Below are positions 5,605 through 23,768 of a stretch of DNA of 30,422 nucleotides, piece after piece (position 1 is the stretch's first letter; every line of letters begins with the position of its first letter). This DNA is from a virus. The stretch spans positions 1 through 30,422 of IMG/VR virus record IMGVR_UViG_3300020190_002514, one strand, 5' to 3'. The notes beneath the pieces were generated by a model. That model saw nothing but the letters and a program-made list of their open reading frames with translations. It was not told the DNA's origin and ran no database searches. A program made the translations under genes and the position numbers.

Positions 5605-5612
5605 TATAAATA
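5605..5612 (+). promoter_or_regulatory. T4-type late promoter box TATAAATA
   Basis: Exact TATAAATA followed by C, 19 bases before the ATG at 5632, in the only sizeable gap (39 bases) between the fibre genes. An AGGGG ribosome-binding site follows at 5621-5625. Of the window's candidate late promoters this is the best placed, because it lies outside coding sequence and directly precedes a virion gene. Confidence 0.72.
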
Positions 5613-8117: not shown

Positions 8118-8462
8118 ATGGACGAACGGTTAGAAAAAGCACTACAGACGGCTAATTTTTTAGCCAGTCTCAATCTAGTAAGGAAAAACACGCTAGAAGA
8201 ATATAAACAAGAATTAATCTTTTACCATAATGGCTGTAGTTTCATTGCGGATTTGCAGTTCATTTCACAAATATATTGCATTAAACAGAATCAACCTAGT
8301 GCGGTCATATTGGATATCAACAGCATACCATGTACAGTCAATGATCTAGAAAAGTTTTATCAGACCTGTTTTGATACCTACAATCGAGCATCGCAAGATT
8401 ATAATGAAAAATATCAAAGCTTAAAAAAGAAGCGTAATGTAAAAAATCTTGTTGATCTATGA
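8118..8462 (+). CDS. Conserved-looking small phage protein (114 aa), unknown function
   Basis: 114 residues, acidic then basic, largely helical, ending in a Lys-rich tail (YQSLKKKRNV). The core SAVILDINSIPCTVNDLEKF suggests a small alpha/beta fold. It starts right after the terminator-like hairpin and overlaps the following glycosyltransferase by ATGA (8459-8462), so it is probably expressed with the glycosyltransferase chain. No motif identifies a function. Coding status is supported by the ribosome-binding site, the coupling and a full-length frame. Confidence 0.6.
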   Translation: MDERLEKALQTANFLASLNLVRKNTLEEYKQELIFYHNGCSFIADLQFISQIYCIKQNQPSAVILDINSIPCTVNDLEKFYQTCFDTYNRASQDYNEKYQSLKKKRNVKNLVDL

Positions 8463-9292
8463 CCAAAGGTTTTTTAATTTTCGCTCAAAATAATCCAGAT
8501 ATTGACTACTGTAAACTGGCGGTATTTTGTGCAAAGAGGTTGAAATCATATATGGATTTGCCAGTTTCTATCGTAACTGATAGTGCCGAATGGTTACTTT
8601 CTAGCCAACCAGAAGCAGGGACGCTGTTTGATAAAATAATTACATGTTTCTCAAATACCACTCAGTCCAAAAAATTCCATGATGGATCCATGTTTTATAA
8701 AAAATTGCAATGGAAAAATTTATCTAGGGTCGAAGCATATGATTTAAGTCCTTACGATAAAACGATAGTAATTGACAGTGATTATATTGTAGCCAGTAAT
8801 TTTCTCGAAAAGTTATTTTCCAGTTCACACAATGTTATGTTATACAGGAAAAGTTATGATCTAGCTCAATGGCGGGATACAAGTTCTTTTGATTATATTA
8901 ATCAATCTATACCCTTTTATTGGGCCACAGTGTTATATTTTACCAAAAATGAAGAGTCAAAAATGTTGTTTACCTTAGTGAAAATAATAAGAGAAAATTG
9001 GCAATATTATCGTTTGTTATATCGCATAGATGCAAGTATGTATAGGAATGATTATGCATTTTCTTTAGCCGTGCACATGCTAAATGGACAGGTGGATTTG
9101 CCAAGTATAGGAGTGATTCCGGGATATAAGTTTTATGTTTTGGATAAGGATTTATTACTAGACATACAAGATTCCACAATGAAATTCTTAGTAGAGAAAG
9201 AGAAATACCACGGTGAATATATTTGCACTAGTATCAGCGACGTTGATGTTCATGTTATGAACAAGTATAGTCTTGCAAGGTTGATTACATGA
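8459..9292 (+). CDS. GT-A-like glycosyltransferase, type A copy 1
   Basis: 277 residues. It begins GFLIFAQNN, has a beta-strand/helix alternation, and carries the probable metal and nucleotide-sugar site IDSD (D106, D108) after YDKTIV, as in GT-A fold (GT8-like) enzymes. Starts by ATGA overlap with the previous gene and ends with ATGA into a paralogue (GFLITAQN, YDKTILLDAD). Its likely reaction is transfer of a sugar from a nucleotide sugar; acceptor unknown. Because it lies behind the fibre genes, sugar addition to virion proteins or to the host surface is a reasonable inference. No signal peptide, so cytoplasmic. Confidence 0.6.
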   Translation: MTKGFLIFAQNNPDIDYCKLAVFCAKRLKSYMDLPVSIVTDSAEWLLSSQPEAGTLFDKIITCFSNTTQSKKFHDGSMFYKKLQWKNLSRVEAYDLSPYDKTIVIDSDYIVASNFLEKLFSSSHNVMLYRKSYDLAQWRDTSSFDYINQSIPFYWATVLYFTKNEESKMLFTLVKIIRENWQYYRLLYRIDASMYRNDYAFSLAVHMLNGQVDLPSIGVIPGYKFYVLDKDLLLDIQDSTMKFLVEKEKYHGEYICTSISDVDVHVMNKYSLARLIT

Positions 9293-10107
9293 CAGATCGA
9301 GGATTCTTAATTACAGCACAAAATAGTTCAACAGTGGACTATGTAAGACAGGCATATTTCCTAGCAAGAAGTATTAGTAGTAGTCAGAGGACTTTTAACA
9401 AAGTGTCATTAATGACAAATGACAGTGTGCCTCAAGAATACCATTATGTATTTGACAGCATAGTTCCAATACCTTTTGGTGATCACGCAAAAAATAGTGA
9501 ATGGAAAGTTGAGAACAGATGGAAGGCCTATCACGCCAGCCCATATGATAAAACTATTTTGCTTGATGCTGATATGTTGATATTTTCAGATCTAGCAAAA
9601 CTGTGGCGGCATTTAGAAGATAAAACTATTTTCTTTACTAGTACAGTAAAAAATTTTAAGGGCCAACTGATCACAGATACTGTGTACAGAAAAACATTTA
9701 TAGAAAATGATCTACCTAATTTGTATTCTGGCCTGTGTTATTTTGAAAAACGTGAAAGAAGTCTAGAGTTTTGGAAATTGGTTGAATATATCACGTATAA
9801 TTGGGAACGTTTTTATTATGAATTTAGTCCTAAACAGATGCAAAAATTTTATAGTTTAGACGTCACGGTAAGTATTGCTGCTAAAATTTTGGACATAGAT
9901 AATATCACAGACGACAGTGGTATATGTTCTTTTACCCACATGAAGTCTCAAATTCAAAACACAATAGTAAACAATTTAGACTGGACGAAATGTTTCAAAC
10001 TCGAGATTTGTGATGAGGAAACCATATTAATTAATAATGTTAGGCAAACAGGAATATTGCACTATATTCAAAATAATTTTTTAGAAGAGTTTATTCATGC
10101 TTGCTGA
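9289..10107 (+). CDS. GT-A-like glycosyltransferase, type A copy 2
   Basis: 272 residues, paralogous to the preceding gene: both open with GFLI.AQN, share SPYDKTI followed by a DxD (here D93-A-D95), and have similar length and order of aromatic segments (YNWERFYYEF here, RENWQYYRLLYR there). The DxD predicts metal-dependent use of a nucleotide sugar. ATGA coupling upstream and an 11-base overlap downstream place it in one translational chain. Two adjacent diverged copies suggest duplication followed by a change of donor or acceptor. The substrate cannot be inferred. Confidence 0.62.
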   Translation: MTDRGFLITAQNSSTVDYVRQAYFLARSISSSQRTFNKVSLMTNDSVPQEYHYVFDSIVPIPFGDHAKNSEWKVENRWKAYHASPYDKTILLDADMLIFSDLAKLWRHLEDKTIFFTSTVKNFKGQLITDTVYRKTFIENDLPNLYSGLCYFEKRERSLEFWKLVEYITYNWERFYYEFSPKQMQKFYSLDVTVSIAAKILDIDNITDDSGICSFTHMKSQIQNTIVNNLDWTKCFKLEICDEETILINNVRQTGILHYIQNNFLEEFIHAC

Positions 10108-10711
10108 TAAAGATGACACAGTTTTAACACAGGAAGAGATAGACAAATATCTGGCATTGACTAATACAAAGGTCAAATATAAAGTTTATTATGACACAGC
10201 TCTTGGGCATATTCTGGCCATTACTAATGAAATAGATCAACGTTATACTTCATTTGTAGAATTTACAGAAATAGAAGTTGCAGATTTTTTATCCGGGCAG
10301 AAAGATTTTTCGAAATGTAAAATTATCTATGATAAATCTATGCAGCCTCAAATAGTTGAGCCACAATTATTTGCGGATATATTAGATCCTTTTATAAAAA
10401 TTAATCAAGGTAATACTAACAGTTCTATAGTAATTGAAAATTATACACAGGAATACAAATGGGGAATTAAGATTGATGAAAGTGAAAGAAAATCTATCAA
10501 AAAACATGAGATTAATACTAGGCTAGATTTCTACGTAACGATTAAAAATAATTCAAGTCTGTTAGTTAGGACATTGTCAGTAGACTTATTAAGTCTGGCC
10601 AACGAGCGGAGACTTTTTATTCCTTATAATGATAAACTAGAGGCAAAGGATAATTTTTTATCAATATACACTAACAAGTTTTTCCCCACATACAGTAGGA
10701 TTAAATTATGA
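10097..10711 (+). CDS. Unrecognised protein within the glycosyltransferase chain (204 aa)
   Basis: 204 residues beginning MLADKDDTVLTQEEIDKYL. No DxD, membrane helix or known motif. The N-terminal half has alternating strands (KVKYKVYYDTALGHILAIT) and the C-terminal half looks beta-rich (RLDFYVTIKNNSSLLVRTLSVDL), which could be a beta-sandwich. It overlaps the previous gene by 11 bases and the next by ATGA, so it is made together with four glycosyltransferases. It may be an accessory or acceptor protein; that is inference only. Confidence 0.55.
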   Translation: MLADKDDTVLTQEEIDKYLALTNTKVKYKVYYDTALGHILAITNEIDQRYTSFVEFTEIEVADFLSGQKDFSKCKIIYDKSMQPQIVEPQLFADILDPFIKINQGNTNSSIVIENYTQEYKWGIKIDESERKSIKKHEINTRLDFYVTIKNNSSLLVRTLSVDLLSLANERRLFIPYNDKLEAKDNFLSIYTNKFFPTYSRIKL

Positions 10712-11631
10712 CAAAATATAAAATAGTTGATTATGACATAATTTACCTAAGTTACGACGAACCAAATGCGGAAAAAAATTACGCAGATCTTTTACATAAA
10801 GTTCCATGGGCCAAACGTGTACATGGTGTAAAAGGCAGTGACAGCGCACACAAAGCCTGTGCTAATCTCAGCGAGACAGATAAGTTTATAACGGTTGACG
10901 GCGATAATATTATAAGAGAGGATTTTCTAAATCAAGAGTTAGATTTCGATGAACACAAAGATCTGTCAAAATGTGTTATTAGTTGGGCTGGATATAATAT
11001 CATTAATGGTTTGATGTATGGCAACGGCGGCTTAAAACTCTGGCCAAAAGAATATGTACTTAATATGAGGACCCATGAAAACGCACCCGCGGATGATCCT
11101 AATGCGCAAGTAGATTTTTGTTGGGATGCCGAATACATACAGATGAATGCGTGTTTTAGTGACGTCTACAATAATGCCACTCCTTATCAGGCGTGGAGAG
11201 CAGGTTTTAGAGAAGGTGTAAAGATGAGCCTCGAGCGTGGGGTAAAAGTATCACAAGATAGTTTTCACAGAGTGATTCATTGGAAAAATATGAATAGATT
11301 GCTAGTATGGATGAATGTTGGCGCCGATAGTAATAATGGAGTATGGGCAATTTTAGGCGCAAGGCATGGCTGTCACAAAACTAATTTTGATGACAACTGG
11401 GACTACCGACAAGTAAGAGATTTTGATCATTTAAACATGATTTGGGACGAACTGCAACATTCATGCAAAAATGAAGCACAGTGTAAAGAGAAAGCCGAAT
11501 ACTTTGGTAAGGACTTGCAAAATCGATTAGGAATACCTTTATCTGTTTTAGACGAAGATGCTAGTAGATTTTTCAAAAAAGTCCATACAGATAACACACG
11601 CTTAAACATCAAAATATTAGACAAGGAATGA
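10708..11631 (+). CDS. GT-A-like glycosyltransferase, type B copy 1
   Basis: 307 residues. Motifs: IIYLSYDEPNAEKNY at the start, a PWAKRVHGVKG segment, SAHKAC, then VDGDN with D64-G-D66 as the probable metal site, followed by YGNGGLKLWP and AGFREGVKM. This set recurs in the next gene and defines a second glycosyltransferase subtype that I recall from marine T4-like phages. Coupled by ATGA on both sides. Predicted to be a cytoplasmic, metal-dependent sugar transferase with unknown acceptor. The extended C-terminal 80 residues (RDFDHLNMIWDEL to the end) are longer than in its paralogue. Confidence 0.6.
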   Translation: MTKYKIVDYDIIYLSYDEPNAEKNYADLLHKVPWAKRVHGVKGSDSAHKACANLSETDKFITVDGDNIIREDFLNQELDFDEHKDLSKCVISWAGYNIINGLMYGNGGLKLWPKEYVLNMRTHENAPADDPNAQVDFCWDAEYIQMNACFSDVYNNATPYQAWRAGFREGVKMSLERGVKVSQDSFHRVIHWKNMNRLLVWMNVGADSNNGVWAILGARHGCHKTNFDDNWDYRQVRDFDHLNMIWDELQHSCKNEAQCKEKAEYFGKDLQNRLGIPLSVLDEDASRFFKKVHTDNTRLNIKILDKE

Positions 11632-12437
11632 ACAAAATTTTAGATAGTAACAATTCCGTTGATAAAAAAGAATTATTAAATAATTTTCCCAATGCTAAAA
11701 TGGTGGCTGATTTAATTTTTTCCGCTTCCTCTGTTCCTTATGATGTATTTTTCTTAAGTTACGGTGAGTTAATTGCAGAAGAAATGTATAAAAAATTACA
11801 AGAGCATTGTCCAAGAGTGAAAAGAATAAAAGATGTGCCAGGTATATATAATGCACATAAAGCCGCTGCCCTAGATAGTAACACGCCTTTTTTTTACGTA
11901 GTTGACGCTGATGTAGAAGTATTTGAATCATTTAATTTTGATCACATCGTTCAACCTTACGAATTTGATATGATTACTATATGGCACTGTAAGAATAGTG
12001 TTAATGATCTAGAATACGGCAACGGAGGAATAAAATTATTTCCAAGATTCCTCTTTGGTGTCGACCGTATTAATGCCGTAGATATCACAACTAGTCTTAG
12101 CAAAACATTGCGTGTGGTGCCAGAGTTATGCGGTATACATCATATTAATTTTACACCATTCAATACATGGCGTAGTGCGTTTAGAGAAGGGGTAAAATTA
12201 CAAATGGATGTAATTGATAACGGTAGTCAAGAATCTGAGGACAGGCTTCGTGTATGGACATCAAAGGGTGTAAGTAAAAAATATGGATCATATGCCATAC
12301 TAGGTGCCAAAGAAGGAAAAAAATATGCCTTACAGCATTTAAAGGACTCTAAGGCACTAATGGCAATTAATGATACGGGATTCTTATACGAAAAATTTCT
12401 GCAGTTTTTTCCTAACATCAAGCACTTAAAATTGTAG
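11628..12437 (+). CDS. GT-A-like glycosyltransferase, type B copy 2
   Basis: 269 residues, paralogue of the preceding gene with motifs in the same order: FFLSYGELIAEEMY, PRVKRIKDVPG, NAHKAA, VVDADVEVF (D93, D95), YGNGGIKLFP and SAFREGVKL. An AAGGA ribosome-binding site and ATGA overlap give its start. It is the last + strand gene: its 3' end overlaps the end of thyX on the other strand by 20 bp. The shorter C-terminus suggests a different partner or acceptor from copy 1. Confidence 0.6.
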   Translation: MNKILDSNNSVDKKELLNNFPNAKMVADLIFSASSVPYDVFFLSYGELIAEEMYKKLQEHCPRVKRIKDVPGIYNAHKAAALDSNTPFFYVVDADVEVFESFNFDHIVQPYEFDMITIWHCKNSVNDLEYGNGGIKLFPRFLFGVDRINAVDITTSLSKTLRVVPELCGIHHINFTPFNTWRSAFREGVKLQMDVIDNGSQESEDRLRVWTSKGVSKKYGSYAILGAKEGKKYALQHLKDSKALMAINDTGFLYEKFLQFFPNIKHLKL

Positions 12438-13086: not shown

Positions 13087-13400
13087 AGGTGTCTTTTCTT
13101 TAAAAATTTGCCTGTGATTTTACTAATATCTTTTTTAATCCTATCGGTATCTAATTTAAAGTCAATCTGATCAATAGAATTTTGATAGCTAGAGAAAAAC
13201 TCCGCAAGTTCATTCTCTATCTTTGCTAGATTATCTTTTTTAATTTTTGAGTAGACAGGAATACGCCAAGACTTTCCGTCTTTAAAAGTTACAACTAAAC
13301 AGTCTAGATATTTAAGTGGAATTACCTTAAGATTAATTTCCCCAAAAACTTCTGGCCAATGTTTTATAACTTCTTTTGGCAGAGCTTTTTTCGATATCAC
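13083..13400 (-). CDS. Small hypothetical protein (105 aa) upstream of thyX
   Basis: 105 residues, basic and Lys-rich (KALPKEVIKHWPEVFGEINLKV), with a short beta segment (YLDCLVVTFKDGKSWRIPVY) and a helical C-terminus ending KFLKKRHL. No recognised motif. It is joined by ATGA overlaps to the gene before it and to thyX. A nucleic-acid-binding or small adaptor role would fit the charge, but nothing in the sequence demonstrates it. Confidence 0.6.
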   Translation of the reverse strand: MISKKALPKEVIKHWPEVFGEINLKVIPLKYLDCLVVTFKDGKSWRIPVYSKIKKDNLAKIENELAEFFSSYQNSIDQIDFKLDTDRIKKDISKITGKFLKKRHL

Positions 13401-13969
13401 TGGGCTTTAGTGTTTAGGTCAACGGCCATTTTCCTCAACTTGGCTGCTTCTTTGTAGAGCCTATCGGCTTCACTTCTATAGTGCCTAGCACGTTCTTCAA
13501 CGGTCATATTTTCCTCATTTTTTGGAGGACTGATATCATTGACTGTGGCCACTTCTTTTATTTCAACGTTCGGTGTTGTCTGCGGCTTCAGATGTAAATC
13601 ATCGATAGCAACCCCACGTTGTTCAGCGATTAATTGATTTAATTCATCTAAACTAATTTTATCTGTTAGTGTAGGAACCATCTCTACGTCGCTAGTCGGT
13701 ACTTTAACCATTTTACCCTGGGTGTGCAGTGCCGATAACATAATAGATCCGTCGGGAAAATTACTGCGGCTTAATACCTCGGCAAACTCATAACTTTCTT
13801 GCGCGGCACTTGATTCAACTAACTGTATCAGTGCATCATGGTAACTATCAGGTAAGTTTTCTGTAGGAATAATCACAGCATGATAAGCATCGCCAGGTAA
13901 TGTCCTGTATGCCACCAAACATTTTTTGCCATTTGCTTTTACTCGTCCAACGTGTTTGAGATCAACCAT
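13397..13969 (-). CDS. Conserved-looking phage protein with C-terminal coiled coil (190 aa)
   Basis: 190 residues. The N-terminal ~110 residues form a beta-rich domain (KHVGRVKANGKKCLVAYRTLPG; HAVIIPTENLPDSYHDALIQ), then a Pro/Asn linker, then a charged helix at ~150-190 (RARHYRSEADRLYKEAAKLR) predicted to be a coiled coil. I remember similar proteins in marine T4-like phages, without a known function. It overlaps both neighbours by a few bases, so it is co-expressed with thyX. Possibly an oligomeric scaffold or regulator, unproven. Confidence 0.6.
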   Translation of the reverse strand: MVDLKHVGRVKANGKKCLVAYRTLPGDAYHAVIIPTENLPDSYHDALIQLVESSAAQESYEFAEVLSRSNFPDGSIMLSALHTQGKMVKVPTSDVEMVPTLTDKISLDELNQLIAEQRGVAIDDLHLKPQTTPNVEIKEVATVNDISPPKNEENMTVEERARHYRSEADRLYKEAAKLRKMAVDLNTKAQ

Positions 13970-14189
13970 TTGTTTGCCCCTTTTGTGCTCCGTTTAAGAA
14001 AGTCACTAATTTGTTATAAGTTTGCCCAACTAGAACCATTTCGCTAGGTTTAAAAGCCCCTCGGGTGCTGGCAACGTCAATGATCATTTTCATGGCGTTA
14101 AGATCACTTAAATTTAGATCGGCCTCGGATGGAGGCGACGCGGCTGCCTGCGTACTTTCCACCGGGTCATTTTCTTTAGTATCGGACAT
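13962..14189 (-). CDS. Small acidic protein (75 aa)
   Basis: 75 residues: an acidic, Pro/Ser/Ala-rich N-terminus (ESTQAAASPPSEADLNL), probably disordered, then a compact helical part (LNAMKMIIDVASTRGAFKPSEMVLVGQTYNKLVTFL). A strong AAAGGAG ribosome-binding site six bases before the ATG supports the start and predicts good translation. It overlaps the next gene by eight bases. The layout resembles small phage proteins that bind a larger partner, but function is unknown. Confidence 0.6.
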   Translation of the reverse strand: MSDTKENDPVESTQAAASPPSEADLNLSDLNAMKMIIDVASTRGAFKPSEMVLVGQTYNKLVTFLNGAQKGQTNG

Positions 14190-14480: not shown

Positions 14481-15052
14481 TTGTAACCAATTATCATAAA
14501 TCTTTTGTATGATTTATTTTTGCCTTTAAGTTCTAACTCCGAACACGTCAGCGTTTTTGCTAAAATAAATTTATCAGAAAACTGATCAAGAGTTTCGATC
14601 AAAACTGTTTCTTGGTCATCATGCCTAAGGTTAGTGCCCTGCAATAGCACTAAAGTGCCCGCAGTAATGTTTTTAAACCATTCCATTGAATGGAAATGCT
14701 CGGTGCTGGTATTGATTACACAATTGATTTTTTCGTGTTCAAAAATAAATTGATTGGCATCGGAAGGATAAGATCTAAATTCCCATGCGTTCATTTCCCA
14801 TGTATTGTTTAAGTGATTGGCAATATAGCATGCCGCCGAATCAAGGTCAATAGATCTACAATATGTAATGGCAATATTATTTCTAACCCTTAAAATAAAA
14901 TGTAAAAGAGAATACCAACCTCCTACGATTACCATCTGTAGACAGTTGATATTTTCTTTAAGACAAATTTTTTCTAATTCTTCAGCAGCCCATATTTTGC
15001 TTTCTATTTGGCCTGCAGAAAAGGCATCGACATCAACTTTTACTAAATTCAT
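14477..15052 (-). CDS. Putative Rossmann-fold (SAM methyltransferase-like) protein
   Basis: 191 residues from the ATG at 15052; the frame is open further upstream, but that part lies inside the VWA gene and gives an unlikely N-terminus. Visible elements fit a Rossmann-type methyltransferase: strand plus glycine turn VIVGGWYS near residues 42-48, an acidic second strand (SIDLDSAA), and a motif-IV-like strand INCVINTSTEHFHSMEWF followed by GTLVLLQGTN. I recall this NTS.EH...WF pattern from marine phages. The glycine loop is short compared with classical methyltransferases, so the substrate and even the activity are uncertain. Overlaps the VWA gene end by 20 bases. Confidence 0.5.
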   Translation of the reverse strand: MNLVKVDVDAFSAGQIESKIWAAEELEKICLKENINCLQMVIVGGWYSLLHFILRVRNNIAITYCRSIDLDSAACYIANHLNNTWEMNAWEFRSYPSDANQFIFEHEKINCVINTSTEHFHSMEWFKNITAGTLVLLQGTNLRHDDQETVLIETLDQFSDKFILAKTLTCSELELKGKNKSYKRFMIIGYK

Positions 15053-16226
15053 CGTAGTATGCAACAGTACCAAATGGTGGTACAATTGAATCATTGCCGT
15101 GTATGACAAATACAGTGTCGCAGTAGCTTTCATCACCCCAACTACCACAAGGATAACCATCGGTGAACATGATAAATTTCTTAGGGGTTATATCTTCTTT
15201 TTTCATGTAGTCCCAATTGGCATCAAAATCTGTGCCGCCGCCACCTGTGACTTTGTAGTCTAAAAGATCGGTGCCGCTGTGGGAATCAAAATCTTCTTCA
15301 TTATACACAGCAGTATCAAAACACCACAATTTAATTTTGAAATCCTTGAATTCTTCCATGATGTTTTTAATTTCACCAATGAAATCTTTAGCCTGCACAT
15401 CCGTAATAGAACCACTCATGTCCAATCCTACACAAACATCAATGGTATCTAAATAGTTCATTCCAGGAAGAATAGCATTGGTATGCCACCCTTTGCGACT
15501 TGGGCGTTGAAACGTATAGTCGTTTTTAATAGTGCTTTGAATTTGCTGGCGAATGATTTGCCGCCAATTCATTTTAGGCTCAGTCATATCGCGAATCATA
15601 CGCTCTACACCGGCAGGTATATTACCCGCGCCCGAGGCACTGGCCGCTTGCATTACGGCATCTTTGATCTCATCACGTATTTTCTTCAATTCATCTTTTG
15701 AATATTGTGGACGATTACCTTGACCTTTTTTATCACCGCCCCCGTCTTCCCAGTCAATATGTTCATCTAATAATTGCCCTAACAGAGAGAGCGCCTGCTC
15801 ATCCATGTCCTCGAAAATTTCATCATATATCTGCTCGGCACTTTTCCCATAGTGTTTTGGATCATGGAAGATTTTGATGTCGCTAGGAGTTTCACCAATC
15901 TTATCTCTGACCAACTGACCATTGACCGCATAGTCAACTGCGGCATTCCAAATTTGTCTATTACGACCTTCACAACGATTCATGTGATCAAATACATTGT
16001 GTAAAATTTCATGTGCGATCACAAACTCAACTTGTTTATGATTAAGTTTTTCAAAAAAATCACGGTTATAAAAAAGATTGCGCCCGTCTGTAGCCGCAGT
16101 TGGGCACCAATCAGATCCATCGGAAATACGTAGGCGAGTGGCCATATTTCCAAAGAAAGGATGACGAAGTAGTAGTCCAATTCTGGCTACAACGATTTTA
16201 TCTAGAACAGGATCTAATTCTGTCAT
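15033..16226 (-). CDS. Zinc-metallopeptidase-like plus VWA-like protein (DUF2201 type)
   Basis: 397 residues from the ATG at 16226, chosen because AGGAG lies six bases upstream; an in-frame TTG at 16241 has no such support. The N-terminal domain carries HEILH at residues 72-76, a zinc-site HExxH. A charged linker follows (~155-190), and the C-terminal half is a von Willebrand A-like domain with the MIDAS motif DMSGS (269-273), a GGGGTDF loop and FTDGYP. This order matches the DUF2201 metallopeptidase/VWA family, which usually partners a MoxR AAA+ ATPase, and that partner is the adjacent upstream gene. The pair probably remodels or chelates metal into a target complex; the phage role is unknown. 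It has its own promoter. Confidence 0.8.
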   Translation of the reverse strand: MTELDPVLDKIVVARIGLLLRHPFFGNMATRLRISDGSDWCPTAATDGRNLFYNRDFFEKLNHKQVEFVIAHEILHNVFDHMNRCEGRNRQIWNAAVDYAVNGQLVRDKIGETPSDIKIFHDPKHYGKSAEQIYDEIFEDMDEQALSLLGQLLDEHIDWEDGGGDKKGQGNRPQYSKDELKKIRDEIKDAVMQAASASGAGNIPAGVERMIRDMTEPKMNWRQIIRQQIQSTIKNDYTFQRPSRKGWHTNAILPGMNYLDTIDVCVGLDMSGSITDVQAKDFIGEIKNIMEEFKDFKIKLWCFDTAVYNEEDFDSHSGTDLLDYKVTGGGGTDFDANWDYMKKEDITPKKFIMFTDGYPCGSWGDESYCDTVFVIHGNDSIVPPFGTVAYYDEFSKS

Positions 16227-16249
16227 GATAGCTCCTAGCAAGTGTATAT

Positions 16250-16278
16250 AGTATAACAGGACCCCAGGGTCCTGTCAA
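16250..16278 (-). promoter_or_regulatory. Sigma70-type promoter for the VWA gene
   Basis: On the - strand: TTGACA (16278-16273), a 17-base spacer, then TATACT (16255-16250), with the AGGAG site and ATG (16226) following. This is a perfect -35, ideal spacing and a one-mismatch -10, in the 68-base gap between the ATPase and VWA genes. It predicts expression by host RNA polymerase early in infection and lets the VWA gene be expressed apart from the ATPase gene. Confidence 0.75.
16256..16275. repeat. Inverted repeat filling the promoter spacer (candidate operator)
   Basis: Nine-base perfect arms ACAGGACCC (16256-16264) and GGGTCCTGT (16267-16275) around a 2-base centre. It occupies the -35/-10 spacer of the VWA promoter and reaches into the -35. 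No T-run follows on the - strand, so it is a poor terminator for the ATPase gene. The position is that of an operator for a dimeric DNA-binding protein. Its high GC stands out from the surrounding AT-rich DNA. Confidence 0.6.
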
Positions 16279-16294
16279 ACGGTTTAGTATCAAA

Positions 16295-17386
16295 TTATCG
16301 CTTTTCAGTAGCTGCACTAATATACTTACCATACTTCGAATGGAAGTCATCGAAACATTTGATCTCGTCAGGATCCAGCGGTAATTGGTATTGGGTAAGA
16401 GCAAGTTTGGTACCCATAACAACCAATTCAGTTTCAAAGTTATTCATAATAAATTCAAAGAAATAATTGACCTGATCGTTCCAATCTTTAGCATTCTTGT
16501 CGCAGGCATCCTTCAGTTCATAGCACAGGCTGACAGTCAACGAATACATAGCACTGATTTCCTTGGTGTCCATCTTCTTTACTTTGCCTTTGAGGATATC
16601 AGTTGGATTAGGCAGTTTGCCAGCTACCTTTCTATGTGCCATAAATTTAATAGCCAAACCTTCACCAACACCTCCAGCAATAAGATCTGCCATCGTGCTT
16701 TCATCAGTGTCGTCATCATCTAATAGTTCACTTACAAAGGTCCACGAACGGGGAGTAGCAAAACTGCGACTAGCGCTTTTAGGATCAAAATCATTCAGAT
16801 CTTTTTTGCTAAACTGTAAGAAACCAGCCACGTCTTTATGTATACGATTGTTGGTAGCCCATTCAAACCAATCATCAAAATCTACTTTCATTTCCAAATG
16901 TAAGAAACGATTTGCCAAAGGAGCCGGCATGCGATATGTAACGCCTTTATCTGCTTCACGGTTACCTGCGGCGACGATGTGCACATTATCAGGCAACTTG
17001 TAAGTACCAACTCGACGATTCAAAACTAACTGATAGGCCGCTGCCTGCACCGCTGGCGCCGCAGAATTCATTTCATCCATGAAAAGAATAATTTTACTAT
17101 ATTGATCAGCCATGATAGCGTCGGGCAGTTCAATAGGCGGCGCCCAAACCATACGATTGCTGTTGCTGTCAAAATAAGGAATTCCTTTAATGTCAGTAGG
17201 TTCCCACAGACTCAAACGAATATCAATAACGTGGGCATTAATTTCTTTCCCAATTTGGTGGATAATTTCACTTTTGCCAATTCCAGGTGGACCCCACAGA
17301 AACAAAGGCCGATTGTGTTTAAAAGCCTTTTGGACTGCTCGCTTTGCAGCCTTGGGACCTACTGTACGATTAGCTACATCGGGCAT
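16295..17386 (-). CDS. MoxR-type AAA+ ATPase
   Basis: 363 residues from the ATG at 17386, chosen because AAAGGAG lies just upstream; the in-frame TTG at 17410 lacks support. Walker A GPPGIGKS is at residues 32-39, Walker B IILFMDE at ~99-105, a sensor-1-like HIVAAGN at ~136-142, and RMPAPLANRF follows as in MoxR proteins. The C-terminal lid is helical. MoxR ATPases use ATP to remodel complexes together with VWA-domain partners, here encoded immediately downstream. It has its own near-perfect sigma70 promoter. The CobS subunit of cobaltochelatase is related, but the WEPTDIKGIPYF segment and partner type fit MoxR better. Cytoplasmic. Confidence 0.88.
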   Translation of the reverse strand: MPDVANRTVGPKAAKRAVQKAFKHNRPLFLWGPPGIGKSEIIHQIGKEINAHVIDIRLSLWEPTDIKGIPYFDSNSNRMVWAPPIELPDAIMADQYSKIILFMDEMNSAAPAVQAAAYQLVLNRRVGTYKLPDNVHIVAAGNREADKGVTYRMPAPLANRFLHLEMKVDFDDWFEWATNNRIHKDVAGFLQFSKKDLNDFDPKSASRSFATPRSWTFVSELLDDDDTDESTMADLIAGGVGEGLAIKFMAHRKVAGKLPNPTDILKGKVKKMDTKEISAMYSLTVSLCYELKDACDKNAKDWNDQVNYFFEFIMNNFETELVVMGTKLALTQYQLPLDPDEIKCFDDFHSKYGKYISAATEKR

Positions 17387-17423
17387 GGTAAACTCCTTTG
17401 GTGAATTCAATGTTGATGTTGTT

Positions 17424-17452
17424 ATTATATGCAGGTAGCGTCACGATGTCAA
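17424..17452 (-). promoter_or_regulatory. Consensus sigma70 promoter for the MoxR gene
   Basis: On the - strand: TTGACA (17452-17447), exactly 17 bases, TATAAT (17429-17424). Both hexamers are perfect. The -35 overlaps the TGA stop (17451-17449) of the upstream gene; the predicted start of transcription is near 17417, about 30 bases before the ATG at 17386. The strongest promoter visible in the window by sequence, of the kind used for early phage genes. Confidence 0.85.
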
Positions 17453-17847
17453 CTGTTTTCTTCCTGGTTTTTCTGTTTTTTTAAGGCCTTTATTAGTCCA
17501 AATTTTCTAATGTCGTCTGCAAACAACAGCAGTTCAAAACTCTTTTTTTCAGAAAAAACGGTTAAACTTTGTGGCCCCAAGAAATAAGGACAATCCAAAA
17601 ATTTATCCAAAAAAATTATTAATTGCGGATTAAGTTCTATATTGTCTGTAAATGGGATTTCGTATGATTTCATATCAAGCGAGTCAATTAAAAATTCTAA
17701 TCCTTTATCGGTAAGTCTAAGTCCACCAGACTCCTTTGACCTGGTATTGTACCACCATGTGTGTTTGTGTAAATGTACATTGGCATCGTCAACACTTTTC
17801 CCCCATTCTCTAAGGAAAAATTTAGTGTACAATTCTTGTGTGATCAT
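17449..17847 (-). CDS. Hypothetical protein (132 aa)
   Basis: 132 residues, beginning MITQELYTKFFLREWGKSVD. The arrangement (helix; WWYNTRSKESGGLRLTDKGLEFLID; then mixed alpha/beta; basic tail IKALKKQKNQEE) recalls a small winged-helix-like domain, with the GLRLTDKGLEFL segment as a typical wing-proximal element. This is suggestive of DNA or RNA binding, not proof. Coupled by ATGA to the upstream gene. Its stop codon lies inside the -35 box of the MoxR promoter, so its 3' end is constrained by that promoter. Confidence 0.55.
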   Translation of the reverse strand: MITQELYTKFFLREWGKSVDDANVHLHKHTWWYNTRSKESGGLRLTDKGLEFLIDSLDMKSYEIPFTDNIELNPQLIIFLDKFLDCPYFLGPQSLTVFSEKKSFELLLFADDIRKFGLIKALKKQKNQEENS

Positions 17848-18128
17848 TTTAGCACTGTACCACTGGTAAGTACCATCACAACGAAATCATTACAGCCAAA
17901 TTGGTCATTTAATTTTTTCGCCAAATTAATAGCGTGTCCGGGATTACTGAAACTAACCTTTTTGTATTTAGGACCAGGGTAATTTACTAGACTATTAAAA
18001 TTTTTTAGATTAAAAGGCTTGCCCTTGTAAAACACAGCCCATATTGCTTCGGCATCTAGTATCTGTTCACATTTGTAATTTTTTTTACTAGTGAACTCAA
18101 GTAATATGCGTGGTTTTGGTCTACTCAT
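17844..18128 (-). CDS. Small hypothetical protein (94 aa)
   Basis: 94 residues, basic (Lys/Arg-rich), with SRPKPRILLEFTSKKNYKCEQ at the start and alternating strands and helices (AEAIWAVFYKGKPFNLK; GHAINLAKKLNDQFGCNDFVV). A GGAG ribosome-binding site precedes the ATG and a late-promoter-like GATAAATA lies just upstream. No recognised motif. Its stop overlaps the next start by ATGA. Function unknown. Confidence 0.55.
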   Translation of the reverse strand: MSRPKPRILLEFTSKKNYKCEQILDAEAIWAVFYKGKPFNLKNFNSLVNYPGPKYKKVSFSNPGHAINLAKKLNDQFGCNDFVVMVLTSGTVLK

Positions 18129-18402: not shown

Positions 18403-18862
18403 TACTTAATACCTGTTTAAGTTCAATTTCTGTTTTAAAAGGACCCTTGTACGGATAACGTTCAATAGTGATAAGTTTCGGACAAAAACTTCTGACCCAA
18501 CCTTTGTTAAATTGAATAGCATAGTGTCCTGCACAGTACAGACTTTTACTTTGAAAACTTTTAGTATAAAGAGGCAAACGTTTTTGAACGTCATACATGG
18601 CATTAAATGGTTTACAGGCCGCTGGATAGCCATGTACTTCTTTGTCAACGGTGTCTGACACGACGGTTTTAACAGATTGTTGGAAAAAATCTTTGCCAAA
18701 TGCTTTTACAAGATCATCCTTTTTGTTAAAACAGGCTTCGCCATCTTTACTGGACACAATAAATTTATTGTTTTCTTTTTTATGTAGTGTGGCAACACGT
18801 TCGCCGTCTTGTTCTATAATCCAAAACTTACCTTCTACAATAGGTTTTGCTGTGACCTTCAT
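18386..18862 (-). CDS. Hypothetical protein (158 aa) coupled to the 5' nuclease gene
   Basis: 158 residues from the ATG at 18862, chosen because that ATG overlaps the nuclease stop as ATGA; the longer in-frame version would run into the nuclease gene. The N-terminal half looks like a small beta domain (KFWIIEQDGERVATLHKKEN, then FIVSSKDGEACF), the rest is basic with aromatic residues (SLYCAGHYAIQFNKGWVRSF). I remember this family from marine T4-like phages, next to replication genes, without a known role. Coupling to the nuclease suggests a function in DNA metabolism. Confidence 0.6.
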   Translation of the reverse strand: MKVTAKPIVEGKFWIIEQDGERVATLHKKENNKFIVSSKDGEACFNKKDDLVKAFGKDFFQQSVKTVVSDTVDKEVHGYPAACKPFNAMYDVQKRLPLYTKSFQSKSLYCAGHYAIQFNKGWVRSFCPKLITIERYPYKGPFKTEIELKQVLSNVKPD

Positions 18863-19827
18863 TTGTACCTCGCTTGAAATGGTTCTGCATATAGTTGAAT
18901 ACTGTCTGCAATCTTTTGCAGGGCAAAAAGATTGCAAAATTTCAACAGTCTAATACCTACTTGATCTATATTTTTTGATTCGTTAGTGTTAGTTATAATG
19001 GTATCTTGTATAAGTTTTTTTACATCGTCAGGTTGCGCTGTCAAATCAATTAACGTAACATTTCGTTGATAGTCATCGATTACTCTATGTTCTTGGCCGT
19101 TATGATCTAACCAACGCTGTAGCATAAGATTATTCCACGCGAATCCTTTGTTACTACGGTCATCAAATGCTTCTTGTAATTTTGTTTTACGAACACCTGG
19201 ATAGGCCGAAAAGACATTGTCTGAAGTATCACCTCTAATACATTTTTCAAATAGTAACCATTCTGGATTAGGAATCGACTTTGGTTCCTTAGTTTTACTG
19301 TCTAAAACCAATTGGCCTTTCTTGTCAAAAATGCCTTCGATAGTAGTGACAGTATCCATTACACCGTTGTACTGTTTTACATTACTAGCAATAAGTTGAT
19401 GAAAATCACTGTCTGTACTGATAATTACGTGATCGGCATCTTTGTGGGATTGGATAAAACCTGCTATTAGATCGTCTGCTTCTAATTTGGGATTTTGTAA
19501 AACTGTGCAGTTTGTTTTGGTACTGATAAATTCTTTGAACTTATCAAAAGTTTCCCAGAACAGTTTGTCTTCTTCTTGCTCTTTAGCAGTCATGGCCGCA
19601 CGGGTTTCTTGCCTATTACGCTTATATGGCTCATAGTAATCTTTGCGCCATGATCTGCCTTCTAAACAGAACACCACATGACTGCCATTAAAGTCTTGCC
19701 AGGCTTTTTTAATACTGTTAAACATAATATGCATGGCCATGCCAATTTTAGTATCGGCGTCGCCTTTAATTACATGACGTGCTCGAAAGAATGTATTGGC
19801 AGTATCAACCAGTATGTACGTTGTCAT
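18859..19827 (-). CDS. rnh: 5'-3' exonuclease, T4 RNase H / FEN-like
   Basis: 322 residues, close to T4 RNase H. The FEN/PIN-type acidic residues are in place: D8 in ILVDTANTFF, the RNRQE/basic segment, LEADDLIAGF, ISTDSDFHQL, and GDTSDNVFSAYPG for the helix-hairpin-helix region. The enzyme removes RNA primers and 5' flaps during lagging-strand synthesis. Translation starts at the ATG at 19827 after a 83-base gap with only a weak ribosome-binding site. The downstream gene overlaps by ATGA. The bacterial DNA polymerase I 5' nuclease is related, but length and context favour the phage form. Confidence 0.88.
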   Translation of the reverse strand: MTTYILVDTANTFFRARHVIKGDADTKIGMAMHIMFNSIKKAWQDFNGSHVVFCLEGRSWRKDYYEPYKRNRQETRAAMTAKEQEEDKLFWETFDKFKEFISTKTNCTVLQNPKLEADDLIAGFIQSHKDADHVIISTDSDFHQLIASNVKQYNGVMDTVTTIEGIFDKKGQLVLDSKTKEPKSIPNPEWLLFEKCIRGDTSDNVFSAYPGVRKTKLQEAFDDRSNKGFAWNNLMLQRWLDHNGQEHRVIDDYQRNVTLIDLTAQPDDVKKLIQDTIITNTNESKNIDQVGIRLLKFCNLFALQKIADSIQLYAEPFQARYK

Positions 19828-19910: not shown

Positions 19911-20471
19911 TCATACAAAATATTCCATATCTGCGGCAAACACAAAACGGTAATCATCTGAGTCAGTTATACCGGGTCTATGCCATAGTTTACTTGAATA
20001 AATGAACCAAGTCAAATTTTTTGGTTCCTGGAAAAAGTTAAGGTCGTGATCTGGCCAGTTAGGACAGAACTCAGTGCCCGCTAGTTTTGGATCGCTGACA
20101 TTGCTAGGAATACTCACATACCAAACACCGCTTAAAGTAGCAGTAGTGCCGTCGTTGTCGTTGATATGATGATGATGCCATAGTTTATTGCGATCTTCAG
20201 CATCTTTGGCAGAGGTCATGAGTACCCAGCTCATAATATTTTTAATGCGTACTTCTTTACCTAGGTAAAGAAAGCAACCAAATATAAAACTTTGGCGCAT
20301 CTTTAACCAAACTGGCTCTGGCCTTGCAAAAAGATTTTCTTGTGTTTGATATTTTGGACTGTTCTTAAAGTATCTACCTTCTGCAATTATTTGTTGCGTG
20401 ATAGTCTTTATGTCTAGATTTTCTTGCAGTGACAGTAAAGAAGAAAAATCATAGGCTTGAACTTGATTCAT
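19911..20471 (-). CDS. Putative 2OG-Fe(II) oxygenase (phage type)
   Basis: 186 residues. The core resembles the PF13759-type fold: a His cluster WHHHHIND (residues 98-105) leading to LSGVWYVSIPS, then FFQEP, and a distal WH (H164) with YRFVFAA (R175) as the expected iron and 2-oxoglutarate ligands. The proximal ligand pattern is HxN/HxD-like rather than a textbook HxD, so activity is likely but not certain. Such enzymes hydroxylate proteins, nucleic-acid bases or small molecules; several types occur in marine T4-like phages. ATGA coupling to the gene before it places it at the end of the QueE block. Substrate unknown. Confidence 0.6.
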   Translation of the reverse strand: MNQVQAYDFSSLLSLQENLDIKTITQQIIAEGRYFKNSPKYQTQENLFARPEPVWLKMRQSFIFGCFLYLGKEVRIKNIMSWVLMTSAKDAEDRNKLWHHHHINDNDGTTATLSGVWYVSIPSNVSDPKLAGTEFCPNWPDHDLNFFQEPKNLTWFIYSSKLWHRPGITDSDDYRFVFAADMEYFV

Positions 20472-20806
20472 TTTTTTGCATCATTAATATTTACAACATT
20501 AATGTATCCTGAATCTCTAGTTTCATCTAGACCTTCTTCTGAGAGGATGTTCTTACATAATTCCTTGAACCATTTATCAACGATTTCTTCATCGTTGTCT
20601 CCTTTGAAACCGTTAGATTTTAACAATGCAATAAAATGATCGTTCCAGTCTAATTCAAAAAAACCATTTCTTGGATTCTCAACATTGACCTTGGTATCAA
20701 TTACTCTAATCCACGGCTCACCTTTTCTTGATGCTTGTTCCTTGGCCGTTTCTGTTAGAGTATCTGCAGGCAGCTTGCCCAACAGTTTTTTAAAAAATTC
20801 TATCAT
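20468..20806 (-). CDS. Hypothetical protein (112 aa) in the QueE block
   Basis: 112 residues. The N-terminus MIEFFKKLLGKLPAD is an amphipathic helix; then a strand-rich stretch (PWIRVIDTKVNVENPRNGFFELDWND) and an acidic helical C-terminal half (DEEIVDKWFKELCKNILSEEG). No recognised motif. It starts directly after the preceding stop and is coupled by ATGA to the oxygenase-like gene. I remember similar proteins from marine T4-like phages. Function unknown. Confidence 0.6.
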   Translation of the reverse strand: MIEFFKKLLGKLPADTLTETAKEQASRKGEPWIRVIDTKVNVENPRNGFFELDWNDHFIALLKSNGFKGDNDEEIVDKWFKELCKNILSEEGLDETRDSGYINVVNINDAKK

Positions 20807-20992
20807 TTACCAACTCTCCAAATCTGTGTTATCTATTTTTACAGATGATTTTGAACCTAATTCTATAGTGACATTGGGTCCAATTCCATTTGTAGATTCT
20901 TCACGCCAGACAATATGATCAACATCATTGTTCGTATCAAAAATTTCTTTGACCTTTTCAAACTGACTCCGGGTAATTGTAATCTCTTTCAT
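20807..20992 (-). CDS. Small hypothetical protein (61 aa) coupled to queE
   Basis: 61 residues from the ATG at 20992, selected because it forms TAATG with the queE stop; an in-frame ATG at 21004 inside queE would add four residues. The protein is MKEITITRSQFEKVKEIFD, then an acidic region and a beta stretch (NVTIELGSKSSVKID). No known motif. Tight coupling suggests co-regulation with QueE, but a functional link is not shown. Confidence 0.55.
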   Translation of the reverse strand: MKEITITRSQFEKVKEIFDTNNDVDHIVWREESTNGIGPNVTIELGSKSSVKIDNTDLESW

Positions 20993-21840
20993 TATGTACC
21001 CCATGCGTTGTTCCAGATGTCAACTTGTAATCTAGGAGAATATTTATAACCTTTATCCATAGAAAGTTGGGCAACTTGCTTTGTATTGAAATGATATAGA
21101 CTGTCTACACCGCCAACGGGCATTAGGTAAACATTGCCAGCAAAACCTTCTTTTTGATATTGCTCAACTGCGCGATTTACTTCATCAACATCATGCTGAT
21201 TGCTGACAACAAATTTTAAATAGGCAGTGCCTAATTCGTTGTAACTGGCTACAACAATTGGTTGTATAGCTTCTGACCATGCTTCACCGCTGCAACTGAG
21301 TTTAGGACTGATACTAAATGTGACTTCAACATCACTTTGATGTTTAAGCCATTCTGCAAATTTAGGATCTAGATCTTGAGTGCCGTTAGTTTCAAAAGTA
21401 ACATTGACTAACCCGTTGCCTGCACACTCTTCAATGAGTTTTGGCCACGCACGTTGCCAGCCTAATAAAGGTTCGCCGCCTGTGATAACAAGATGGATGT
21501 CGTTGTTTCCTTGCCGCCATGTGCGATTAGGAATAAGATCTTCCATCTTAATTTTAATATCATCAAGCGTCATAAAATGGCTAAGATTTTTATAGGCAGG
21601 ATGCCACGACGCATAACTGTCGCAGCCGGTTCTAGCCAACGGCAGTTCTTCGTAGATTTTAAACTTAGAGATATCTTTAGCAATATCCTCGGGATCTGTG
21701 CTGCGTTGACCTAAAGGTAAACCAAACCCTCTACATTGAAAGTTACAACCAAAAGAGCGCAGGAACACGCTAGGCGTTCCTGCATACAGTCCTTCGCCTT
21801 GTATGCTGTAAAATATTTCTGCAATTTTAACCTTGTTCAT
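20992..21840 (-). CDS. queE: 7-carboxy-7-deazaguanine synthase QueE (radical SAM)
   Basis: 282 residues. The N-terminus IAEIFYSIQGEGLYAGTPSVFLR is the QueE hallmark. The 4Fe-4S ligands appear as C32 and C36 (GCNFQC) and C73 (TGCDSY), i.e. CX3CX36C, with a long loop instead of CX3CX2C. ITGGEPLL gives the SAM-binding GGEP; FETNGT and FSISPKLSCSGE follow as in the family. The enzyme converts 6-carboxy-tetrahydropterin to 7-carboxy-7-deazaguanine. It overlaps MazG by 14 bases upstream. FolE and a QueD-like gene nearby support a preQ0 route. Cyanophage-type QueE proteins, as I recall, share the expanded loop. Confidence 0.9.
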   Translation of the reverse strand: MNKVKIAEIFYSIQGEGLYAGTPSVFLRSFGCNFQCRGFGLPLGQRSTDPEDIAKDISKFKIYEELPLARTGCDSYASWHPAYKNLSHFMTLDDIKIKMEDLIPNRTWRQGNNDIHLVITGGEPLLGWQRAWPKLIEECAGNGLVNVTFETNGTQDLDPKFAEWLKHQSDVEVTFSISPKLSCSGEAWSEAIQPIVVASYNELGTAYLKFVVSNQHDVDEVNRAVEQYQKEGFAGNVYLMPVGGVDSLYHFNTKQVAQLSMDKGYKYSPRLQVDIWNNAWGT

Positions 21841-22111
21841 AAATGTTAGACCATTTTTTTAATTTGTCTTCTTTAAGTTTTTTTGCTTTTTGCAAGTCTT
21901 CTGTGGTAAACACACCTTGTTCAACAAGAAGATATATCATTAATATAACATCTCCGGCTTCTTGAGTCAACTGTTCTCGCTGAGTTACACTATCTTTGTA
22001 CGTATTATCAAGACCAAATCTTCGAACTTTACTTAAGGCAACAATCAATTCGCCGCATTCTTCTTGTAGAATGTCCATTATTTCCTGGGTCTTAGACACA
22101 GTTGCCTTCAT
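21827..22111 (-). CDS. MazG-like nucleotide pyrophosphohydrolase
   Basis: 94 residues, the size of single-domain MazG-like proteins. The all-helical metal site is visible as EECGEL (residues ~17-22) and EAGDVILMIY (~51-60), which match the ExxE...ExxD pattern. These enzymes split NTPs or dNTPs to monophosphates and pyrophosphate. Marine T4-like phages often carry one. Here it is coupled to the 74-residue gene before it (ATGA) and overlaps queE, so it may tune guanine nucleotide or modified-nucleotide pools; that link is inference. Confidence 0.85.
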   Translation of the reverse strand: MKATVSKTQEIMDILQEECGELIVALSKVRRFGLDNTYKDSVTQREQLTQEAGDVILMIYLLVEQGVFTTEDLQKAKKLKEDKLKKWSNIYEQG

Positions 22112-22332
22112 TGTAAAAATCCTGTGTTTATTTTTTTAACGGAATCTTTTCTATTATAGATAGTTTCGACCATGTGCCGATATTCGTCATCAGTCATTAA
22201 TGTTTTATAGAACGTAAGACCCTGTGCTATTAGAATACCGGCTATTTCAAATGGTAGATATCCTTCTTCTACCATTTGGTTATGAATCAACCAGTATTTT
22301 TGATATAGCTTGTCTAATTTGTCATCGTTCAT
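22108..22332 (-). CDS. Small helical phage protein (74 aa)
   Basis: 74 residues, mostly helical: DKLDKLYQKYWLIHNQMVEEGYLPFEIAGILIAQGLTFYKTL, then a DDEYRHMVETIY segment. The pattern EEGY.PFEIAGIL.AQGLTFYKT.. is one I remember from small conserved proteins of marine T4-like phages. Its stop overlaps the MazG start as ATGA. Function unknown; the sequence has no enzyme motif. Confidence 0.65.
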   Translation of the reverse strand: MNDDKLDKLYQKYWLIHNQMVEEGYLPFEIAGILIAQGLTFYKTLMTDDEYRHMVETIYNRKDSVKKINTGFLQ

Positions 22333-22389
22333 TGTTTTTATTTGTTAAATTTTTTGTTAGTCAGTATTTTACAATATTGTCCGTAGCAA

Positions 22390-22434
22390 CTATTTGTTTG
22401 AAGATGATCCGATATTCATTCCACAAGCAGCCAT
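22390..22434 (-). CDS. Possible 14-residue peptide coupled by TAATG
   Basis: The stop of the 72-residue gene overlaps an ATG (TAATG at 22436-22432), opening a 14-codon frame (MAACGMNIGSSSNK) that ends at TAG. Every neighbouring junction uses the same ATGA/TAATG coupling, which makes translation plausible. A 45-base frame has no statistical support of its own. I have a faint memory of similar Cys/Gly peptides in marine phages, not enough to name it. Confidence 0.3.
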   Translation of the reverse strand: MAACGMNIGSSSNK

Positions 22435-22652
22435 TATTTTTTCCTTGTGCGTTTAGATTTCTCTTCTGGTTTATTTTCTATACCCGCAATGGCTTCTCGG
22501 ACATCACGTTTAAGTGCATCCCAGTCAGTTAATAATTCTATCCTGCCGTCCTCATATTCGTACCTGGTGCTATGACTACCTACGGTGACTATCGGCCAAG
22601 TAGTAGGAAGTTTGTCAACATCGACCTTCTTTTTAGATTTAGGTGCTATCAT
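22434..22652 (-). CDS. Small basic/acidic protein (72 aa) downstream of guaC
   Basis: 72 residues with a Lys-rich start (MIAPKSKKKVDVDKL) and Lys/Arg-rich end (EEKSKRTRKK); the middle has strands (WPIVTVGSHSTRYEYEDGRIELL) then a helix (DWDALKRDVREAIAGI). Begins nine bases after the GMP reductase stop. I recall this kind of protein in marine T4-like phages. The charged ends suggest nucleic-acid or protein contact, otherwise unknown. Confidence 0.6.
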   Translation of the reverse strand: MIAPKSKKKVDVDKLPTTWPIVTVGSHSTRYEYEDGRIELLTDWDALKRDVREAIAGIENKPEEKSKRTRKK

Positions 22653-22661
22653 TATTTTGTC

Positions 22662-23768
22662 TCACTTTAAAAAAATATCATTTATCTGTCGATTTACACG
22701 GATAAAAGTAGTGCATTTACTTAGTTGTTTCAAAGTTGGTGCCCCAACATAGGTACAGCAGCTACGGAGACCACCTAACAAGTCTAATACAGTGAATTTT
22801 ACTGGACCTCTATAGGGAATAGTAACAGTACGACCTTCACTGCTACGATATTCTGCTACACCACCGTGATGCTTTTCCATGGCAGTGTCTGAGCTCATGC
22901 CATAAAACTCTACGAACTGTTCTTTGATAGCACAAAAATCATAGGTGTCTAAACCATCTCTGTTTTTACTACTGATAAACTGTTCGCCTTTGACATTAAA
23001 ATATTTGGTTATTACCTTGCCGCCGCCTTCATCATGACCGGCCAACATGCCGCCCAGCATTACAAAATCTGCACCAGCTCCGAAGGCTTTAGCGACATCC
23101 CCAGCACAAGTACAACCGCCGTCAGCAATAATGTGTCCACCAAGACCATGAGCAGCGTCCGCACATTCAATGATCGCTGAAAGTTGTGGATAGCCAACGC
23201 CAGTTTGAATACGAGTAGTACAAACGCTACCAGGGCCAATGCCCACTTTAACAATATCTGCTCCACGTAATATTAACTCCTGTGTCATGTCTGCGGTAAC
23301 GACATTGCCGGCAATAATTGTGCAATGTGGAAATGTTTCTCTTACCTTTTGAACGTAATCTCCAAAGCGTTCTTGATAACCATTTGCAACATCAATACAG
23401 ATAAAATGGATTTCTGGATAGGCATTTATTATTTGCTTTAGAGTAGAAAAATCTTTATCACTAGTACCAGTACTGACAGCAAAATATTTACCGCCTATTT
23501 CTTCTACAGTGGTGTCAAAGTATTCTATGGTAGTATTTTTAACTAGACAAGTAAACATCCTGTGTTCGTACAAAGCATGAGCCATGTCTAGTGTTCCAAC
23601 GCCGTCCATGTTAGAAGCCATGATAGGAATGCCAGACCATTCCGTTTTGCTGTGCCGAAATTTGTATGAACGATTTAAGTCTACTTCTTTACGGCTAGAA
23701 AGTGTACTGCGTTTTGGACGTATAAGGACATCTTTAAAATCTAATTTAACATCGTTTTCAATTCTCAT
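22662..23768 (-). CDS. guaC: GMP reductase GuaC
   Basis: 368 residues from the ATG at 23768, which overlaps the upstream stop as ATGA. The sequence follows bacterial GuaC closely: [45 protein letters not shown], the catalytic loop [11 protein letters not shown] with C183, IIADGGCT and [14 protein letters not shown]. GuaC reduces GMP to IMP with NADPH and releases ammonia; IMP dehydrogenase is excluded by the lack of CBS domains and by the N-terminus. It is about 20 residues longer than E. coli GuaC because of an insertion at ~251-287, before FYGMSS. It is coupled to a phosphoribosyltransferase and GTP cyclohydrolase I. Confidence 0.95.

Follow-up and report, generated by a model that had tools for sequence, protein, structure and literature searches.

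What does a large phage do with a MoxR-type AAA+ ATPase and a VWA-domain partner encoded beside it? The question is posed by a 30,422-nucleotide stretch of viral DNA (IMG/VR record IMGVR_UViG_3300020190_002514, positions 1 to 30,422; hereafter the window), for which an earlier note, made from the sequence alone, had described an intact AAA+ ATPase gene followed by a gene for a protein with HExxH and MIDAS (metal ion-dependent adhesion site) motifs, and had suggested a takeover or counter-defence function. The pair, at 15033–17452, is real, its motifs are as described and both genes are encoded on the minus strand. The role that we favour, tentatively, is that of an early-made chaperone acting on a phage-encoded complex, most likely in virion assembly or maturation.

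The gene pair and its relatives

The moxR gene extends from an ATG at 17386 to a stop at 16295 and encodes a protein of 363 amino acids; after a gap of 68 nt, vwa extends from an ATG at 16226 to a stop at 15033 and encodes a protein of 397 amino acids. The open reading frames (ORFs) as listed open further upstream, at TTG codons, but for both genes the ATG starts, with their ribosome sites (AAAGGAG for moxR), fit better. Each protein matches a PHROG family over its full length: the ATPase phrog_1297, the N4 gp24 family (E = 8e-104, 348 bits, profile positions 8–354 of 356), and its partner phrog_1314, the N4 gp25 family (E = 8e-110, 369 bits, positions 11–392 of 394). In Pfam the ATPase scores over the cut-off for AAA_3, and the VWA protein exceeds the gathering scores of both PF13203, the putative metallopeptidase domain DUF2201_N (E = 1e-37, 130.5 bits versus 23.2), and PF09967, the VWA domain DUF2201 (E = 7e-15, 55.8 bits versus 26.4). 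By these profile matches the pair is the gp24/gp25 family of phage N4, and is already known rather than new.

In phrog_1314 and in RefSeq phage records the gp25 family goes under the name 'HNH endonuclease' (or homing endonuclease), a spreading misannotation of what is really a DUF2201 metallopeptidase and VWA protein. We rejected the HNH identity because the VWA protein has no HNH Pfam match and DUF2201 spans the protein. Also rejected was a CobS/CobT cobaltochelatase pair, since the CobS-like phage porphyrin-biosynthesis family phrog_249 reached only 26.7 bits and no CobT family was matched in Pfam or NCBIfam. A ternary conflict system (VMAP, iSTAND, FtsH, beta-propeller) was rejected on the score for bpMoxR (PF20030), 18.6 bits, under the cut-off of 27. 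The immediate neighbours scanned included no family of the kind that forms the third core component of MoxR-vWA ternary conflict systems.

The window ATPase carries the Walker A motif GPPGIGKS and the Walker B motif LFMDE, while its partner has HEILH at residues 72–76 and DMSGS at residues 269–273, the MIDAS being made complete by GGGGT and TD further along. Over 10 diverse phages, from the window phage to N4, Walker A and B, the sensor 1 asparagine and the arginine of PLANRF are kept in every ATPase, and the MIDAS (DxSxS, GGT motif, TD) is complete in every VWA protein; Asp98, by its position a candidate third metal ligand, is likewise present in all. Nine of the ten retain HExxH; the exception, Atu_ph07, has HQILH (L004, 7956–9245), and its VWA protein, without the catalytic glutamate, may lack peptidase activity. 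With Walker A and B, sensor 1, an arginine finger and a predicted AAA+ core fold all present, the ATPase can be placed among the MoxR AAA+ proteins, and by analogy with these it would assemble into a hexameric ring for ATP-driven remodelling. Proteolysis by the DUF2201_N domain, which Pfam itself calls putative, is predicted from its motif. The structure models were modest (predicted local distance difference test scores of 69.5 and 63), and their fold matches are supportive at most. The best PDB matches of the ATPase model by Foldseek were 2r44 (putative ATPase CHU_0153) and NorQ of NorQ-NorD complexes, and VIA-align matched CbbQ and NorQ among many AAA+ proteins; for the VWA protein model, the C-terminal half gave matches to VWA domains, with Z of about 9 across some 130 residues, and the N-terminal part gave a weak match to the metallopeptidase selecase.

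In tblastn searches of phage records the VWA protein was found in 762 and MoxR in 794, all at less than 60% identity, with relatives in Pseudomonas PA5oct-like phages, Sinorhizobium phage Phosso, Agrobacterium phage Atu_ph07, RaK2/121Q-like jumbo phages, Bacillus phage G and N4-like phages. The gene-neighbourhood survey for which the earlier note had called found moxR followed directly by vwa at each of the 79 viral loci whose contig carries the two genes. gp24 and gp25 are among the shared proteins of N4-like phages, the Schitoviridae core, gp25 with support from just one method out of three (PMC7650795). The same pair has been described in jumbo phages (ASV44729.1, ASV44728.2) by Iyer et al. 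(2021), who proposed a virion-assembly chaperone role (PMC7824862), and these two accessions are the homologues that our search recovered from Atu_ph07. A whole phage family has gp24/gp25 as a core pair, and many jumbo phages share it.

The N4 pair resembles that of the window in its two PHROG families, gene order, intact AAA+ and MIDAS motifs and pre-late expression class, although identity to the window proteins is about 33% and 28%; the middle genes of N4 are transcribed by its RNA polymerase II, whereas the window genes have sigma70-type promoters, and the stretch of N4 that was read showed none of the window neighbours orf132, orf94 and orf190. The Atu_ph07 proteins are direct homologues (38.5% and 36.8%) with the same domain layout and common neighbours, but have HQILH where the window has HEILH. 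The closest named MoxR relatives (50%; VWA 43%) are those of the Pseudomonas jumbo phages PA5oct and MIJ3, although in PA5oct some 3 kb, containing a homing endonuclease and three ORFs, separates moxR from vwa. NorQD, CbbQO and RavA-ViaA share the AAA+ fold and a VWA protein as partner; identity is low, however, and only the window partner has a DUF2201 metallopeptidase domain. A cellular origin of the pair was rejected, as a genome collection gave two loci, one with phage-type neighbours, in a search with strict patterns that distant cellular DUF2201 pairs may escape. That locus lies on a 335-kb contig in a Neomarinimicrobiota assembly, which also carries a tail-like gene and probably comes from a jumbo phage that was binned into the metagenome-assembled genome. 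PF13203 also matches in Thermotoga maritima and Deinobacterium chartae.

Promoters and a hairpin in the vwa spacer

Each gene is preceded, as the earlier note had claimed, by a TTGACA-17-TATAAT-like promoter. That of moxR (17452–17424, minus strand; TTGACA-17-TATAAT) agrees with the sigma70 consensus at all 12 positions, as no other site in the window does, whereas shuffled windows would have 0.03 such sites each; its −10 element lies 38 nt from the ATG and its −35 element overlaps the stop codon of the ORF before it. That of vwa (16278–16250, minus strand; TTGACA-17-TATACT) agrees at 11 of 12 and is one of four window sites scoring at least 11 at spacings of 16–18, with 1.4 expected. Because the total of weaker promoter-like sites equals chance, only the top sites carry meaning on their own, and conservation in relatives is a stronger argument than the consensus score. 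When the upstream regions of 44 distinct relatives per gene were compared with shuffles, 86% of those of moxR scored at least 10 (8% after shuffling), as did 68% of those of vwa (5%), the −35 element starting about 60–90 nt before the ATG of moxR and 52–62 nt before that of vwa. Low vwa scores came from clades with an N-terminally extended VWA protein, in which the true upstream lies outside the region read.

The T4 late promoter sequence, TATAAATA, is absent from the 110 nt upstream of moxR and vwa in all 44 + 44 relatives, and the motif CTAAATA shows no enrichment. Because sigma70 promoters are present and TATAAATA is not, early or middle expression appears likeliest for the pair, in agreement with N4, in which it belongs to the middle class. 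The early expression that had been suggested is in keeping with these promoters, while high expression is read from the match to consensus, which predicts that both promoters are strong.

In the clade of the window phage the vwa promoter holds a second element. The 17-bp spacer plus the ACA of the −35 element make up an inverted repeat of eight perfect base pairs around a 4-base loop, ACAGGACC(CTGG)GGTCCTGT (16256–16275, minus strand). In eight orthologous sites, a modest sample, it is 100% paired, with three pairs altered on both sides; other clades have an ordinary hairpin immediately upstream of the −35 element in place of the nested form. An IMG/VR scan with the pattern TTGACANNNNCNNNNGNNNNTGTTATAMT, which leaves four pairs free, gave at least 59 distinct sites; among the matches listed, all four pairs were complementary in 26 of 59, against 1.3 expected by re-dealing. 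These 26 sites have 14 different stems and, in 18 cases, TNCG loops; 23 have a stop on the same strand no more than 150 nt upstream, and 24 have an ATG no more than 120 nt downstream. A terminator scan did not call the vwa hairpin, the tail of which is only part T, with a weak U-tract, and we therefore rejected its reading as a classical terminator. A DNA operator is a less likely explanation of the palindrome, because its arms covary, its loop commonly belongs to the UNCG class of stable RNA loops and the sites so often follow a stop.

The nested form also occurs at six of the ten exact TTGACA-17-TATAMT sites of phage RB49 (four fully paired, two with one mismatch or wobble), the phage from which PeSLs have been described. 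The title of a cited paper presents PeSLs as composite promoter-terminator motifs. Like the PeSL cassettes of the T4-like phages RB49 and phi1, the vwa element joins a strong sigma70-type promoter to a stem-loop between genes; it differs in its stem and in its 4-base loop, often UNCG in the wider set, whereas RB49 has the stem AGGGGATC and a 3-base loop. On sequence grounds we file it as a PeSL-like composite element, a known kind, with putative roles in termination and, as for PeSL cassettes, in gene shuffling. Each gene of the pair would then be its own transcription unit in the window phage, started by a PeSL-type promoter element. A hairpin nested in the spacer makes it simple to search for other composite elements of this promoter/terminator kind. 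Nested-hairpin promoters were also seen on the minus strand of two relatives, before a lipoprotein-like gene in L119 (near 8513) and L120 (near 7528) (ACACCACC-TTCG/TACG-GGTGGTGT), and on that of L121, directly 5′ of an apparent tRNA gene (near 4024; GACAAGTT-AAAA-AACTTGTC).

The target of the pair

A chaperone of virion assembly could work as follows. The VWA protein would bind its target through the MIDAS and dock it on the MoxR ATPase ring, ATP hydrolysis by the ring would remodel the target, and the metallopeptidase domain may cut or hold it. Made early, the pair would be ready ahead of assembly, and the hairpin in the vwa promoter may also terminate the moxR transcript. The PA5oct homologue of MoxR, EST35_0335, is annotated ESI-MS/MS (electrospray ionization tandem mass spectrometry), that is, detected with purified virions. 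In phAPEC6 a virion ATPase, gp265c (6 peptides, 19% coverage, 49.52 kDa), is the MoxR homologue, because its mass equals that of the homologue gp563 (49.51 kDa) of the near-identical phage 121Q and six neighbouring proteins could likewise be matched by mass; the homologue of the window's orf190, gp262c, is represented in phAPEC6 virions by one peptide. In 121Q the pair adjoins a run of genes annotated as structural, and in the N4-like phage RPP1 the genes of four virion proteins lie close to the gp24/gp25 homologues. For their assembly proposal, Iyer et al. cite an Acidianus two-tailed virus precedent (PMC7824862).

Several observations weigh against assembly. The promoters of the pair are of early rather than late type, and its neighbours in N4, Presley, Phosso and Atu_ph07 are often replication or nucleotide genes. 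The VWA partner is unmarked in the PA5oct virion set and absent (54.06 kDa) from the phAPEC6 list, and neither a gp24 nor a gp25 homologue is among the 13 virion proteins of RPP1. The phAPEC6 list also includes thymidylate synthase and a RecA-like protein, so that MoxR may have been carried over into virion preparations, and HQILH in Atu_ph07 suggests that peptidase activity may be dispensable for the pair. As to timing, assembly chaperones of T4 such as gp31 and gp40 are likewise made early, and early expression therefore cannot decide between assembly and takeover. The literature searched gave no experimental role for gp24/gp25, and the CRISPRi-ART paper, consulted for essentiality, does not mention phage N4 or 121Q.

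Takeover or counter-defence, in which the early-made pair would dismantle or inactivate a host complex soon after infection, is in our judgement rather unlikely. Host-type promoters are conserved for both genes, in two relatives (contigs of 161 kb and 142 kb) the vwa or moxR promoter is among only two or three perfect TTGACA-17-TATAMT sites, and bacterial MoxR-VWA pairs are known in conflict systems (PMC7159879). The pair is, however, core in N4-like phages and spread over very different hosts, unlike patchy takeover genes; MoxR co-purifies with virions (PA5oct, phAPEC6), and defence-system models, which we rejected for the pair, gave just weak generic AAA matches. The earlier reading of early expression as a sign that the pair acts on a host complex finds no support in this distribution or in the company of MoxR with virions, and positive evidence for takeover or counter-defence did not emerge beyond the early-type promoters.

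Equally doubtful, in our view, is a remodelling of the replication or transcription complex of the phage, in which the pair would load, activate or recycle one of its proteins in the early or middle phase. Such a role would suit the middle class of the N4 pair, the gene order in Presley, where vwa is followed within 6 nt by a DNA helicase gene and then by a DNA polymerase gene, and the exonuclease or polymerase-I-like genes nearby in the window phage, Phosso, Atu_ph07 and SCTP-2. The neighbours vary among lineages, however, the 121Q pair sits amid structural genes, and no physical link to such proteins is known. Improbable, too, is a conserved early machine that unfolds or cleaves a particular host complex and in which each subunit has its own host-type promoter, insulated by a hairpin within the spacer, the ratio of ATPase to adaptor thereby being set independently. 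Insertion of a metal cofactor or activation of a metalloenzyme, as by NorQD or CobST, is very unlikely: CbbQ and NorQ from NorQ-NorD complexes are among the best folds of the ATPase, but function does not follow from fold similarity, a conserved metalloenzyme partner is lacking beside the pair, and MoxR scores 27 bits against the porphyrin-biosynthesis phage family versus 348 for its own. With early-type promoters, kept ATPase and MIDAS residues and a virion-associated MoxR, the choice between an assembly chaperone and a takeover machine is directly testable in N4.

Phage type and neighbouring genes

By sequence comparison the window phage is a large T4-like phage; a T4-type gp23 capsid gene is present in five of eight long relatives, the longest relative contig measuring 278 kb. 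Four small minus-strand ORFs flank the pair in most of 54 loci, with varying subsets in PA5oct, Phosso, Atu_ph07 and 121Q. Upstream of moxR lie an ORF of 132 amino acids (17449..17847), clustered in 51 of the 54 loci, including PA5oct, Phosso and Atu_ph07, and related to 121Q gp562 by a weak match (E = 8e-4) plus linkage, and an ORF of 94 amino acids (17844..18128; 51–61% identity in PA5oct, Phosso and Atu_ph07). Downstream of vwa are ORFs of 75 amino acids (13962..14189; homologues in PA5oct and Atu_ph07, and in 121Q by linkage) and 190 amino acids (13397..13969), the latter homologous to 121Q gp566 and phAPEC6 gp262c. Further upstream in the same strand cluster is a replication gene, a 5′-3′ exonuclease (18859..19827, minus strand; PF02739, E = 2e-20); Phosso and Atu_ph07 have homologues of it close to their own copies of the pair.

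On the plus strand the window opens with tail-fibre genes, followed by a run of glycosyltransferase-like ORFs (8459–12437, plus strand), two of which were scanned and matched no family. TATAAATA occurs at 1013–1020 (plus) before the ORF at 1041, at 5605–5612 (plus) before the ORF at 5632 and at 21041–21048 (minus) before the ORF at 21004. Two of these three sites are on the tail-gene strand and none precedes moxR or vwa; the ORF at 21004 (minus) is directly followed by an ORF (20468–20806) with a match to a virion-structural family. The sites fit T4-type late promoters, their number equalling chance and their placement seeming non-random. A minus-strand cluster at 20992–25050 brings together a radical-SAM-like protein, an IMP dehydrogenase/GMP reductase, a phosphoribosyltransferase and GTP cyclohydrolase I, and may serve nucleotide or 7-deazaguanine metabolism.

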